This document shows positions 25,266 to 28,960 of a stretch of 64,000 nucleotides of DNA, piece by piece. The first letter of the stretch is position 1. Each line of letters starts with the position of its first letter. The stretch is from Marinobacter salsuginis. GTDB lineage: Bacteria > Pseudomonadota > Gammaproteobacteria > Pseudomonadales > Oleiphilaceae. The translations under genes were made by a program, and so were the position numbers. The stretch spans positions 558,001-622,000 of the forward strand of contig NZ_BGZH01000001.1 of assembly GCF_009617755.1 (NCBI RefSeq), written 5' to 3'. The notes beneath the pieces are model-generated. The model saw only the letters and a list, made by a program, of their open reading frames with translations, searched no databases and had not been told where the DNA came from.

Positions 25266-26522
25266 ATGCAGGATCATACCAACGACCCGGTCTGGAAACA
25301 GGCCATTGCCGGCTCACAAATGCTGCTGGTGGCCTTCGGTGCCCTGGTGCTGATGCCATTGATCACCGGCCTGGATCCCAACGTGGCCCTCTTCACCGCC
25401 GGCCTGGGCACCCTGATCTTTCACGTGGTGACCGGCGGGCAGATCCCGATCTTCCTGGCGTCCTCCTTCGCCTTTATTGCCCCCGTAATCGCTTCCAAGG
25501 GCCGGTTTGGCATGGAAGAAACCCTGGGCGGCCTGATGGCCGCAGGTATTCTCTACATCTTCCTGAGTGGCCTGGTTCGGATGCGGGGCACCGGCTTTGT
25601 CCGCCGCCTGCTGCCGCCAGTGGTCATCGGCCCCGTGATCATGACCATCGGTCTCGGCCTGGCACCGGTTGCAGTTCACATGGCCTCCGGCCGTACGGGT
25701 GACGGCGCCAACCAGCTGATCCCCTACGACACCGCCATCTGGATCGCGATGATCTCTCTGGCCGTAACCATCATCATGTCGGTCTGGGCCAAGGGCATCT
25801 TCCGCCTGATTCCCATCATGTTTGGCGTGATCACCGGCTACATCCTCTCCGCGTTTGCAGGCATCGTGGATACCACGCCCATCAAAGAAGCCGCCTGGTT
25901 TGCCGTTCCCAACTTCGTTGCGCCCGAGTTCAGCTGGGGCGCCGTGCTGTTCATGATTCCGGTAGCCATCGCCCCGGCCATCGAACACATTGGCGACGTG
26001 CTGGCCATCGGCAACGTGACCCGCAAGAACTATCTGGAAAAGCCGGGCCTCCACCGCACCCTCCTGGGTGACGGCCTGGCCACCAGTGCTGCTTCCATGC
26101 TCGGTGGACCACCCAACACCACCTACTCTGAAGTCACCGGCGCGGTCATGCTGACCAAGAACTTCAACCCGAAAGTCATGTGGTGGGCGGCCGGCGTAGC
26201 CATCGTTCTGGCCTTTGTTGGCAAGTTCGGCGCGGCACTGCAGACCATCCCGGTCCCCGTTATGGGCGGCATTCTGTGCCTGCTGTTCGGCTCCATTGCC
26301 GTGGTTGGCCTTAACACGCTGATCCGTCACCAGGTGGACCTGTCACAGTCTCGCAATCTGGTGATCGTCGGGGTCACCCTGGTATTCGGTATCGGCGGGA
26401 TGGTGCTGGGTCATCTGGAAGGCATCGCGCTGTGCGCGGTGGCCGCCATTATCCTGAACCTGATCCTCCCCGGCAGCCGCGAGGCATGGGGCAAAGCCGT
26501 CTATGAGCAGAAAGCCGACTGA
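25266..26522 (+). CDS. uraA: UraA, uracil permease (NCS2 family)
   Basis: 418 aa, with about 12-14 membrane segments. NCS2 features are visible: the SSFAFIAP segment near residue 75, the APAIEHIGDVLAIG motif with the substrate Glu, and GGPPNTTYSE near residue 280. It imports uracil for Upp. Its 3' end overlaps the next gene by 20 bases. Confidence 0.96.
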   Translation: MQDHTNDPVWKQAIAGSQMLLVAFGALVLMPLITGLDPNVALFTAGLGTLIFHVVTGGQIPIFLASSFAFIAPVIASKGRFGMEETLGGLMAAGILYIFLSGLVRMRGTGFVRRLLPPVVIGPVIMTIGLGLAPVAVHMASGRTGDGANQLIPYDTAIWIAMISLAVTIIMSVWAKGIFRLIPIMFGVITGYILSAFAGIVDTTPIKEAAWFAVPNFVAPEFSWGAVLFMIPVAIAPAIEHIGDVLAIGNVTRKNYLEKPGLHRTLLGDGLATSAASMLGGPPNTTYSEVTGAVMLTKNFNPKVMWWAAGVAIVLAFVGKFGAALQTIPVPVMGGILCLLFGSIAVVGLNTLIRHQVDLSQSRNLVIVGVTLVFGIGGMVLGHLEGIALCAVAAIILNLILPGSREAWGKAVYEQKAD

Positions 26523-27357
26523 CAGCTCCGGCATCAGCTTCACTGCCCTCTACACCGGTGCCGTCTGGCACCGGTACGGGCTTTCCGACGACATTCTGGC
26601 CACGGAAAAAGGTCGCTGGCTATACCGCCTGATGACACCCTTCGAGGCCGCCAGCAAGGCGGCCATCGGTGGCAACATCCGCACCTTCCTCCTGCAACGC
26701 CATCTGATCATCGAGCATCTGATCGACCAGGCCATCAAAGAAAAGGGCATCACTCAGGTCCTGGAAATCGCCTGCGGCATGTCTCCCCGGGGCATCCGGT
26801 TACGCCAGAAACATCCCCTGCTCCATATGGTCGAAGCCGACCTGCCCGACATGGCCGCCCGCAAGGCGCTCCGCCTGATGGCCACTGGCCGCCTCGGCGA
26901 CCATCACCAGGTCACGCCCATCGATATCCTCGCGGATCACGGCGAGTACCAACTGGAAAAAGTAATCGACCGGGTATTCGAGAACAACGAGCCGGTAATC
27001 ATCGTTACCGAAGGCCTGACCAGCTATTTTTCCCTGGAAACCATCACCGTGTTCTGGCGCAGACTCTCCTCCGCCATGGGCAAGCGCCCGGGTTCGGTTT
27101 ACCTGTCCGAAAGCTACTACCAGCCAAGCCAGCCTGTACTGAACACCACCCTGAAAGCATTAGGAGGCGTCCTCGGGGCCATCACCCGCAGCGAGGTATC
27201 CTTCCACTTCCGGACTGACGCTCAGGCAAGGGAGCATTTCCTGTCCTGTGGGTTCGCCTCTGCCACCGTGCATGACCCGCGGTCCTGGTATGGAATCTTG
27301 CCGATTCCCGAAAGCCGCGGTGAGCCGATGGTTCGGGTTATTGAGGCTGGTTGCTGA
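26503..27357 (+). CDS. Class I SAM methyltransferase, leucine carboxyl methyltransferase-like
   Basis: 284 aa. It begins inside the uraA 3' end. The SAM-binding motif is VLEIACGMSPRGIRLRQ (about residues 86-102), an acidic VEADLPDMAARK follows, and VIIVTEGLTSYFS matches the LCM/PPM1-type motif. The N-terminal segment (GAVWHRYGLSDDILATEKG) resembles other bacterial members. Substrate is unknown; polyketide, O- or protein methylation are all possible. It is the last gene of the plus-strand upp-uraA unit and is followed by the hairpin array. Confidence 0.75.
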   Translation: MSRKPTDSSGISFTALYTGAVWHRYGLSDDILATEKGRWLYRLMTPFEAASKAAIGGNIRTFLLQRHLIIEHLIDQAIKEKGITQVLEIACGMSPRGIRLRQKHPLLHMVEADLPDMAARKALRLMATGRLGDHHQVTPIDILADHGEYQLEKVIDRVFENNEPVIIVTEGLTSYFSLETITVFWRRLSSAMGKRPGSVYLSESYYQPSQPVLNTTLKALGGVLGAITRSEVSFHFRTDAQAREHFLSCGFASATVHDPRSWYGILPIPESRGEPMVRVIEAGC

Positions 27358-27399
27358 CCTTGCCTTCGAGTCCTGCCCTAGCCTGCTGTTTCGGGGTAA

Positions 27400-27507
27400 G
27401 AGGTTTGTGGGTCTGCTTCCCAAAAACCGCTACGAGCACATCCATGTGCGCTTGGCTGTGGCCATCCATGGCCACAGACATTTTTGGGAAGCAGACCCAC
27501 AAACCTC
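27400..27507. repeat. Hairpin element A: 27-bp perfect arms around a 54-base core
   Basis: Arms 27400-27426 and 27481-27507 are perfect reverse complements of 27 bases. The 54-base core (27427-27480) holds two more hairpins: GCACAT-CC-ATGTGC (27436-27449) and CTGTGGCCAT-CC-ATGGCCACAG (27456-27477). The predicted fold is a three-way junction. The core recurs, inverted, in element B at 27672-27777 with two differences. It lies in the 466-base gap between the converging methyltransferase and flhB genes. Confidence 0.85.
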
Positions 27508-27536
27508 GCAAACCTGACGGGAATCCGCCAAAACCG

Positions 27537-27630
27537 CGTAGATTGGATTAGGCGAGGCCCAAATCCAACAAATGTTATTAAAACCACAACGGGATTGTCG
27601 GATTACGGCTTCGCCTAATCCGACCTACGG
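27537..27630. repeat. REP-like doublet (REPIN-type inverted pair)
   Basis: Two similar palindromic units face each other. The right unit, 27597-27624, is GTCGGATTACGGCTTCGCC followed by TAATCCGAC, flanked by CTACGG. The left unit, 27541-27569, is GATTGGATTAGGCGAGGCC followed by CAAATCCAAC, preceded by CGTA. Read on opposite strands they share CGTAG-TYGGATTAGGCGARGCC. This is the layout of REP doublets; the motif GTCGGATTAGGCG is widespread in proteobacterial intergenic regions. It sits exactly between hairpin elements A and B. Confidence 0.75.
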
Positions 27631-27671
27631 TCAGCACTAGTATTTTTCAGCGATATCGATGGGTTTGAAAA

Positions 27672-27777
27672 GCGGTTGTGGGTGGCCTTTTCAGGACTGT
27701 CTGTGGCCATGGATGGCCACAGTCAAGCGCACATGGATGTGCTCGTAGCGTGTCCTGAAAAGGCCACCCACAACCGC
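27672..27777. repeat. Hairpin element B: inverted copy of element A core with different 26-bp arms
   Basis: Arms 27672-27697 and 27752-27777 are perfect reverse complements of 26 bases. The core (27698-27751) read on the minus strand matches the element A core at 52 of 54 positions. The arms share their outer part with element A (G-A/C-GGTT-T-GTGGGT) but differ almost wholly in the inner half, and in each element both arms changed together. It ends 46 bases before the flhB stop. Confidence 0.85.
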
Positions 27778-27823
27778 GCTAACTCCTAAACCCGCAGGCT
27801 ACTTACAGGAACCCCACTCAGAA

Positions 27824-28960
27824 CTAAACGTCGCGCCGCAAATCAGAGGGAATGGGGAAGTCAGGCATACCAGGTTTAGGCCCACGCCCCTTGCGGAACT
27901 GGCGAAGCTGGAACACATAGGCGAGCACCTGGGCGATCGCCATGTAGAGGCCATCGGGAATTTCCTCGCCGATATCCGTGTTGTGGTAAACCGCTCGGGT
28001 CAGCGGCGGTGTTCTCAGAATCTCGACTTTGTTCTCGCGGGCAATTTCCATGATCTTGAACGCCACCTCATCGGCCCCCTTGGCCACTACAATCGGCGCA
28101 GCCATCTCCTTCTGATCGTACTTCAACGCGACGGCATAGTGGGTCGGGTTGGTGATTACCACGTCTGCGGTCGGCACATCCTGCATCATCCGGCGCTGGG
28201 CCATTTCGCGTTGGAGCTGTCGGATCTTGCCTTTGACCTCGGGTTTACCCTCGGTGTCCTTGTATTCGTCTTTCACCTCCTGCTTGGTCATGCGCAGTTT
28301 TTTCTGGTGATCGTAGATCTGGAAGGGTACGTCGATGGCCGCGATGATGATGGTGGCGCAAGCGAGGAGGAAAAAGCTCCAGGCGATGGTCCAGAGTACG
28401 TGTTCCATGGCCGGCACCACAGGTTCCTCGGCGATGGACAACAGGTCTTCGGTGCGCAGGTCCAGGATAAGGATGGCCAAAGCCATGACAAGGCCGACTT
28501 TTGCAATGGCCTTGACCAGCTCGATCAGCGAGCGCATTGAGAACATGCGCCCCAGGCCCTTGATGGGGTCCATACGATTGAGTTTCGGGGCCACGGCCTT
28601 GCCGCTGATCAGCAGACCGCCAATTCCGATTGAGCCGAAGATGGCGGCAATAAGAAGTAGTACCAGAATCGGCGAGAGGGCCCAGGCGGCTTCCTTGGAA
28701 GATTCGATGAGCTGGACGCTCATGTGCCGCATGTCAAAGATGGCGGACCGTTCGATCACGAAGCTGTCGCGCATGATGGCTTCCAGCGACGCTCCGAGGC
28801 TGGCGCCGAACACGAGCATGCCTCCCGCGCCAGCCAGAAGCACCGCCATGGTGGCCAGCTCTTTGGAACGGGCAGTCTGGCCCTCCTCCCTGGCCTTTTC
28901 GAGCCTTCGGGGGGTGGCCTCTTCCGTTTTTTCCTGACTGTTATCGTCTTCTTCGGCCAT
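27824..28960 (-). CDS. flhB: FlhB, export gate switch protein
   Basis: 378 aa. A charged N-terminus (EKTEEATPRRLEKAREEG) precedes four transmembrane helices (about 36-55, 92-115, 148-168, 188-208). The cytoplasmic domain contains the autocleavage site N271-P272-T273-H274, then AVALKYDQKEMAAPIVVAKG. FlhB changes export specificity from rod/hook to filament on FliK signal. It is the last gene of the fliL-flhB run; the flagellar unit then stops and the repeat array begins. Confidence 0.97.
   Translation of the reverse strand: MAEEDDNSQEKTEEATPRRLEKAREEGQTARSKELATMAVLLAGAGGMLVFGASLGASLEAIMRDSFVIERSAIFDMRHMSVQLIESSKEAAWALSPILVLLLIAAIFGSIGIGGLLISGKAVAPKLNRMDPIKGLGRMFSMRSLIELVKAIAKVGLVMALAILILDLRTEDLLSIAEEPVVPAMEHVLWTIAWSFFLLACATIIIAAIDVPFQIYDHQKKLRMTKQEVKDEYKDTEGKPEVKGKIRQLQREMAQRRMMQDVPTADVVITNPTHYAVALKYDQKEMAAPIVVAKGADEVAFKIMEIARENKVEILRTPPLTRAVYHNTDIGEEIPDGLYMAIAQVLAYVFQLRQFRKGRGPKPGMPDFPIPSDLRRDV

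Follow-up and report, generated by a model that had tools for sequence, protein, structure and literature searches.

The two palindromic elements that face each other in the window—the whole 64,000-nucleotide stretch of Marinobacter salsuginis DNA analysed here—belong to TwoAYGGAY (Rfam RF01731), an RNA family published in 2010 that is described but unexplained. They are two of dozens of copies dispersed over the genome, each keeping a stem sequence of its own in almost complete pairing around a shared core, and the mismatches tolerated in the stems give strong support to selection on the structure, acting on one strand, i.e. the one presenting two ANGGAY loops. We put at about 60% the probability that each element is a structured TwoAYGGAY RNA locus of the ANGGAY strand and, as such, likely a CsrA-binding domain, which would be transcribed and would serve the titration or tethering of that protein.

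The two elements, inverted to each other, lie in a gap of 466 nt between two convergent genes (Table 1); the gene before element 1 is presumably that of a SAM-methyltransferase-like protein and the one adjoining element 2 we take to be flhB. A preceding sequence-only reading had described facing elements of 106-108 bases with perfect arms of 26-27 bp and a 54-base core kept at 52 positions, and the measurements agree: the arms, of 27 nt in element 1 and 26 nt in element 2, are 100% complementary, 54 nt separate them in each element, and with both cores read on the GGA strand 52 of the 54 positions are identical and two differ. As also claimed there, the inner halves of the arms are unlike between the elements while remaining paired, the outer halves being alike (GAGGTTTGTGGGT and GCGGTTGTGGGT), and the core contains two small hairpins, so that the AUGGAU loop occurs twice in each window element (as folded; its exposure is predicted). 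Hairpin 1 is fully paired in both window copies, tandem G.A mismatches being seen in many relatives. RNA folding turned both strands of each element into a rod with two hairpins (z from -10.9 to -13.1 over the four strands), and the loop pattern TGTGGCCATCCATGGCCACA has four matches in the window, both strands counted, against 0.04 expected; a chance origin of the elements is excluded. The REP-like doublet noticed between them is present as well, its halves (27537-27571 and 27595-27629) being 83% complementary, and is regarded as an orphan REP in a genome with no Y1_Tnp match. A REP-type 13-mer, GTAGGTCGGATTA, has five copies in 400 kb of the own chromosome and one in a stretch of M. flavimaris.

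Table 1 Features of the two elements and their surroundings (positions in the window)
Feature	Position	Strand	Sequence or remark
Neighbouring gene, stop before element 1	26503..27357	+	
Element 1, possible right outer motif	27378..27385	-	CAGGCTAG, 7/8 to CAGGCTAC; arm 14 nt away
Element 1, palindromic unit	27400..27507	-	ANGGAY (GGA) strand is minus; core 27427-27480; arms 100%, RF01731 match
Element 1, arm	27400..27426		pairs with 27481-27507
Element 1, hairpin 2	27436..27449	-	GCAC-AUGGAU-GUGC (sequence and fold)
Element 1, hairpin 1	27456..27477	-	CTGTGGCC-AUGGAU-GGCCACAG (sequence and fold)
Element 1, arm	27481..27507		pairs with 27400-27426
REP-like inverted doublet between the elements	27537..27629		separate repeat family, outside the palindromic unit
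Element 2, left outer motif	27650..27657	+	GCGATATC; arm 14 nt away; flhB-site feature, not family-wide
Element 2, palindromic unit	27672..27777	+	GGA strand is plus; core 27698-27751; arms 100%, sub-cut-off RF01731 match
Element 2, arm	27672..27697		pairs with 27752-27777
Element 2, hairpin 1	27701..27722	+	CTGTGGCC-AUGGAU-GGCCACAG (sequence and fold)
Element 2, hairpin 2	27729..27742	+	GCAC-AUGGAU-GUGC (sequence and fold)
Element 2, arm	27752..27777		pairs with 27672-27697
Element 2, right outer motif	27795..27802	+	CAGGCTAC
Neighbouring gene adjoining element 2, convergent with the first neighbour	27824..28960	-	

Concerning the family assignment, the RF01731 covariance model matches element 1 on the minus strand (27385-27523) with 43.6 bits and an E-value of 1.6e-5, thus passing the cut-off of 43 bits, and element 2 on the plus strand (27654-27800) with 38.4 bits and an E-value of 0.00024, i.e. 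below that cut-off; element 2 is grouped with element 1 by the identity of their cores and not by covariance score, 43 bits being the curator's threshold rather than a matter of anatomy. The opinion of the sequence-only reading that no described family has this design was therefore wrong. Besides the model match, the likeness to TwoAYGGAY (clan CL00106), a gammaproteobacterial family, consists in two AYGGAY-loop hairpins under a weakly conserved external stem, the latter represented here by arms that are paired but private to each copy. The second loop base is variable in the genus (A, C, G or U over both loops), and the loop is accordingly written as ANGGAY. At 20 own-genome loci scanned, the model finds matches in six with E-values up to 0.5 and in none at 43 bits. 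In the order, 24 of 145 genomes match with E-values up to 0.001, 13 above the cut-off, against none of 14 control genomes, the stricter filters of this order-wide search having lost weak matches. Other genera, from other families of the order, yield many RF01731 matches (e.g. G210, G216, G152, G237; L158, L162, L164, L165), frequently in inverted pairs spaced by a few hundred bases, and with other core layouts. Rfam matches to eukaryotic miRNAs remained below the cut-off and look like chance matches to long hairpins.

It should be noted that the portions of the TwoAYGGAY literature consulted (PMC2864571, PMC4333381, PMC11661157, PMC11701678, PMC7657543) report no tested function for the family and contain no mention of dozens of copies per genome, private stems, a strand-specific mismatch bias or inverted pairs. 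The consulted part of PMC4333381 reports CsrA-motif matches and a tandem-GA module in one stem, with which the inner mismatches of hairpin 1 in the aligned relatives (rows 4-6; GA, AG and GG, all purine-purine on the GGA strand) are consistent. No title or abstract start on Marinobacter copies was found in the open-licence literature on TwoAYGGAY, on CsrA together with repetitive elements or on Marinobacter CsrA/REP. Relative to the portions consulted, the high-copy, private-stem pattern with an exchangeable core, along with the strand evidence, is new.

A query with a 64-base core gave 43 matches in the own genome, two of them fragments of 14-15 bases, and a pattern search added one, which makes 42 places. 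When 400 kb of this chromosome were scanned by structure, 19 elements came to light, five with core subtypes missed by the query (further own elements with other core subtypes: 622315, 718311, 761377, 765950, 766112), and the 42 own copies are therefore a lower bound. The core search of own and related genomes, as proposed by the sequence-only reading, thus gave the opposite of what might have spoken against that reading, namely that the window pair is the only one; in the genus, a core match with an E-value up to 0.001 is present in 113 of 120 genomes. At the same threshold, no element match was obtained in 72,556 plasmid records or 50,697 phage records, which speaks against carriage by the plasmids or phages of these two collections.

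The arms could be parsed in 37 of the 42 own copies, the other five (C1:626965, C2:383443, C5:110977, C1:1314430 and C1:437188) having a changed loop or a nested insert. An insert of ~80-95 nt with hairpins of its own replaces the loop of hairpin 2 in C1:437188, C1:1314430 and C2:383443 as well as in L081, L111, L234 and L254; it shows GAAGC...GCTTC and CAGCAATC...GATTGCTG in several copies, and the variant represents either an insertion nested in the element or an additional RNA domain. In the surroundings of flhB, a loop-blind scan for inverted repeats (exact arms of 14 or more, spacers of 20-150) over 68 loci (1.40 Mb) found 73 repeats, containing at least two ANGGAY in 56 cases, one in 11 and none in six. 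The 17 others were inspected by eye and comprise five REP doublets, ten element variants or pairings of neighbouring copies and two apparently unrelated repeats. On the same loci, a loop-guided finder returned 58 elements, and four on the reversed sequence; since it requires GGA-type loops, the loop conservation in the alignments is partly by construction, the 56 of 73 being the loop-blind count. The inverted-repeat scan, the loop-guided finder and the arm counts did not use twelve of the 80 flhB loci (L143-L146, L149, L151-L157), which are distant or lie beyond the genus group.

The true arms of the 37 parsed own copies pair at a mean of 23.97 of 25 positions (22-25), as compared with 11.95 of 25 (maximum 20) for arms swapped between copies, so that the other outcome which could have counted against the sequence-only reading, a loss of pairing in further copies, was likewise not what was seen. 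No two own copies have their arms in common: the outer arms of different copies have a mean identity of 0.38, and over 18 bases the closest own counterpart of an arm still differs by 5-9 edits, a little less than in the case of shuffled arms (6-9). The 31 own cores with a length of 54 nt share 85% of their sequence. Over 76 distinct rows, the arm cells comprise 1903 Watson-Crick (WC) pairs, 44 GU, one AC and 28 others; when the right arms are redealt, a mean of 1000 WC pairs is left.

On duplex DNA of any composition, one transition from a WC pair is equally likely to give G.T or A.C. On the ANGGAY strand, however, the ratio of G.T to A.C among arm mismatches is 22:0 in the 37 own copies (the five unparsed ones being absent from the count), 23:0 in 58 copies from flhB-flanking loci, 16:1 in 40 copies from loci flanking purE-purK, a set that includes the own locus, and 16:2 in 19 copies of other genera, for which 26 order-wide loci were used (four same-genus loci of 30 dropped) and 13 gave elements. 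It should be pointed out that orthologous rows share ancestry and the counts beyond the own genome are therefore not independent, only the own-genome ratio being nearly so. The remaining arm mismatches are mostly purine-purine on the ANGGAY strand, and the inner mismatches of hairpin 1 show the same tendency. Because G.T far exceeds A.C, the fold of the ANGGAY strand has been selected in RNA form or, at a minimum, in single-stranded form. Of the two structures offered by the sequence-only reading for selection to act upon, the RNA three-way junction thus stands and the DNA cruciform, which would treat both mismatches alike, is not supported. The orientation of the elements on the largest contig, 17 on the minus and 14 on the plus strand, gives no hint of a role of the replication strand.

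How the arms change was followed in 79 nearest-neighbour pairs picked by arm similarity from the own, flhB and purE-purK sets, most of which seem to represent a single site in two genomes and some of which may not. They exhibit 244 double WC-to-WC changes, 52 single WC-GU changes and 29 single WC-mismatch changes, with A.C involved in three in all. With G.U intermediates standing between similar arms, sequential compensatory change under selection suffices, and the copying mechanism once suggested to regenerate arm symmetry is not needed; it may still contribute, since transversions, which make up 121 of the 244 double changes (arm distance up to 14) and 25 of 69 (distance up to 8), are unable to pass through G.U. 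At the orthologous sites of M. flavimaris, the arms are identical at 585399, show one G.U difference at 436831 and differ at many paired positions at 585671, 622315 and 626913, the last of these having three differences in the core and widely different arms. At the flhB site, L109 and L113 have the arms of L127 and L148, but another core subtype. Core and arms are separable, and an exchange of cores between copies would be the simplest reading. In the one case considered (own 641151 versus M. flavimaris), the similarity was too weak for flanking sequence to be claimed as the source of an arm. Elements downstream of flhB in L090, L094, L095 and L120 are chimeric, with one arm derived from one copy and the other arm, sometimes along with an inverted core, apparently from its inverted neighbour; they are taken as a sign of recombination within pairs.

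With regard to gene context, based on a codon-scored gene caller and on the GGA-strand reading, 19 of the 42 own copies are convergent, 17 tandem (11 antisense, six sense) and six divergent; 36 are clear of called genes, and six overlap a called ORF by 41-170 nt, maybe because of miscalled starts. In the 400 kb stretch, six of 19 elements—a small count—are found in convergent gaps, which account for 6,742 of 50,346 intergenic bases, and seven between divergent genes. This inconsistent orientation to the neighbours fits poorly with a simple 3'UTR element of one gene orientation, which is therefore unsupported. The elements sharing a gap point apart with their GGA strands in all pairs of the own genome (8/8), the flhB site (16/16) and the parsed purE-purK set (8/8). 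At the wider spacing of 681-968 nt, the own genome has two pairs pointing apart and one opposite, and the order-wide listing includes one pair facing the opposite way in G249 (C2) and one in G210 with both elements on the same strand.

Outside the arms, the right motif CAGGCTAC, typically 13-15 nt past the arm, is recognizable at seven or more of eight positions in 46 of 95 elements (38/58 in the flhB set, 8/37 own copies) versus 2/95 shuffles, and the left motif GCGATATC, lying 12-14 nt ahead of the arm, at the same stringency in 32 of 95 versus 3/95 shuffles. The latter, found in 30 of the 58 flhB-set elements and only two of the 37 own copies, is for the most part peculiar to the flhB site, which speaks against its being the left end of the whole family. 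A role as a -10 box would be doubtful as well, there being no -35, almost no conservation upstream of it (at most 0.22 bits in 70 aligned copies) and no promoter in the window scan.

Among 30 purE-purK gaps, five are empty with an identical junction, three are element-free with other short gaps, seven contain one element, ten a pair and four a palindrome with another core, while in L240 the core has been deleted and the arm-to-arm palindrome is left as a scar. In the gaps of L242, L244, L252 and L253, similar-looking arms enclose a core that is unrelated and has no GGA loops (ACCGCCTGTCTGAGC...), as though the core had been swapped whole. A purK tree, in which empty and filled genomes are intermixed with weak support, gives no polarity of gain or loss at this site.

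According to the mechanism proposed here, the RNA forms a rod of ~27 bp, largely free in sequence, that ends in a junction bearing two short, projecting ANGGAY-loop hairpins. The pairing of the rod is selected copy by copy while its sequence drifts via compensatory changes, many of them through G.U pairs, so that every copy has come to possess a private stem; the core is held by loop selection and probably exchanged between copies, with the result that cores remain alike while stems differ. CsrA (RsmA) is the most likely partner, by recognition of A(N)GGA in each loop, and with the loops 24 nt apart, one CsrA dimer could hold both. Dozens of RNA domains that tether or titrate CsrA would then arise as intergenic regions are transcribed by read-through or in antisense.

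Two traits of sponge RNAs, A(N)GGA in predicted exposed loops and a CsrA gene in the same genome, are both present. The own genome has one CsrA-family gene, and csrA occurs in 110 of 110 genus genomes with a completeness of 90% or more and a contamination of 5% or less; since genomes without a core match have csrA too, its presence alone does not link it to the elements. The consensus scans detected no sigma-70-like promoter in 27300-27900 (other promoter types being outside their reach) and no own promoter, GacA box or terminator on the GGA strand (window region; GacA box in the 42 copies, its best score being 10/12 in one copy and 6-9 in the rest, which are weak counts without a chance baseline). 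What weakens the CsrA reading most is the missing promoter signal, together with the mixed gene contexts.

As far as known systems are concerned, CsrB/CsrC and the RsmX/Y/Z sRNAs, such as Aln1a-c of Alteromonas in the consulted part of PMC5864184, bind CsrA/RsmA by A(N)GGA in hairpin loops, i.e. by the motif seen here. They are, however, few strongly expressed sRNA genes with promoters of their own, whereas the present elements are dozens of short two-site units, each in a long private stem, and are not assigned to sponge sRNAs of the CsrB/RsmZ type. The REP/BIME/REPIN repeats with their RAYT (Y1) transposases are similarly intergenic, palindromic and often arranged in inverted pairs, but the REP sequence is conserved, unlike the stem sequence of the Marinobacter elements. 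Integron attC sites are recognised by structure as a folded single strand with variable stem parts, and have conserved ends and a varying inside, whereas here the inside (the core) is conserved and the stem varies. The elements do not qualify as MITEs either: their arms are inverted repeats but not common to the copies, the outer motifs are not mutual inverted repeats, and no clear target-site duplication was seen by eye at the one closely read site (purE-purK).

Several other explanations have to be weighed. A structured RNA acting with a partner other than CsrA, as punctuation or protection between genes—a bidirectional terminator or a barrier to RNase III or exonucleases—is unlikely in our judgement. 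A perfect duplex of 27 bp is a plausible RNase III substrate, and the copies clear of called genes as well as those in convergent gaps accord with such a role; the frequent divergent position of elements in the 400 kb does not. Element 1 has a terminator-like stem with a T run (27456-27477, plus strand), yet this lies on the strand for which the mismatch test shows no selection, element 2 is without such a site, and a single match does not exceed the yield of shuffles (mean 0.8). Punctuation would, moreover, leave unexplained the preservation of the ANGGAY loops alongside changing stems. Still less probable are DNA cruciforms, or replication template switching that copies arm onto arm, keeping the symmetry with no RNA function at all, an explanation to which we give almost no weight. 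The perfect private arms and the many paired changes, transversions included, would suit it, and the core deletion sparing the arm palindrome in L240 shows that palindrome-prone mutation occurs; neither process, however, distinguishes G.T from A.C, and the standing G.U intermediates argue against both. As sole causes, cruciforms and arm copying are ruled out by the mismatch asymmetry.

Ranking between these two, and improbable as well, is a non-autonomous mobile element that would move as a hairpin formed by the GGA strand in single-stranded DNA, comparable to IS200/IS605, REP or attC, its fold being kept for a recombinase. As single-stranded DNA, the GGA strand would likewise accommodate G.T more readily than A.C, and the existence of purE-purK gaps with an element beside cleanly empty ones, the single geometry of same-gap pairs and the right motif at a fixed distance are all in its favour. 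On the other hand, the copies stay paired and compensate over time, hence selection persists after any insertion. The search for a RAYT-type transposase, envisaged by the sequence-only reading, had a negative outcome, as the own genome has no Y1_Tnp match, which speaks against mobilisation by RAYT there; 60 others of the 124 genus genomes are also without one (63 have a match), against the wide presence of the core. Arms unshared among own copies are unexpected if units move whole, and the confinement of the left motif mainly to the flhB site weakens the mobile reading further, as do the two exceptional pairs in the order, the empty plasmid and phage searches, the purE-purK site without clear target duplication and the match of the loops to the CsrA consensus.

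Returning to the reading as a CsrA-binding RNA, we regard it as a tentative possibility, well short of even odds, that the elements together constitute a distributed CsrA sponge in Marinobacter and its relatives, made of dozens of dispersed intergenic RNA domains in both orientations, each selected at its own site. If this is true, it would be the transcription of many gaps taken together that sets CsrA, instead of a few sRNA genes, the cores would be homogenised by exchange, and the private stems would also prevent recombination between copies. Counting G.T versus A.C is also an inexpensive way of finding out, for palindromic repeats in general, whether one acts as RNA and on which strand. 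With dozens of natural variants per genome, a fixed core, free stems and a clear strand, the questions of CsrA and transcription can be tested in culturable marine bacteria.
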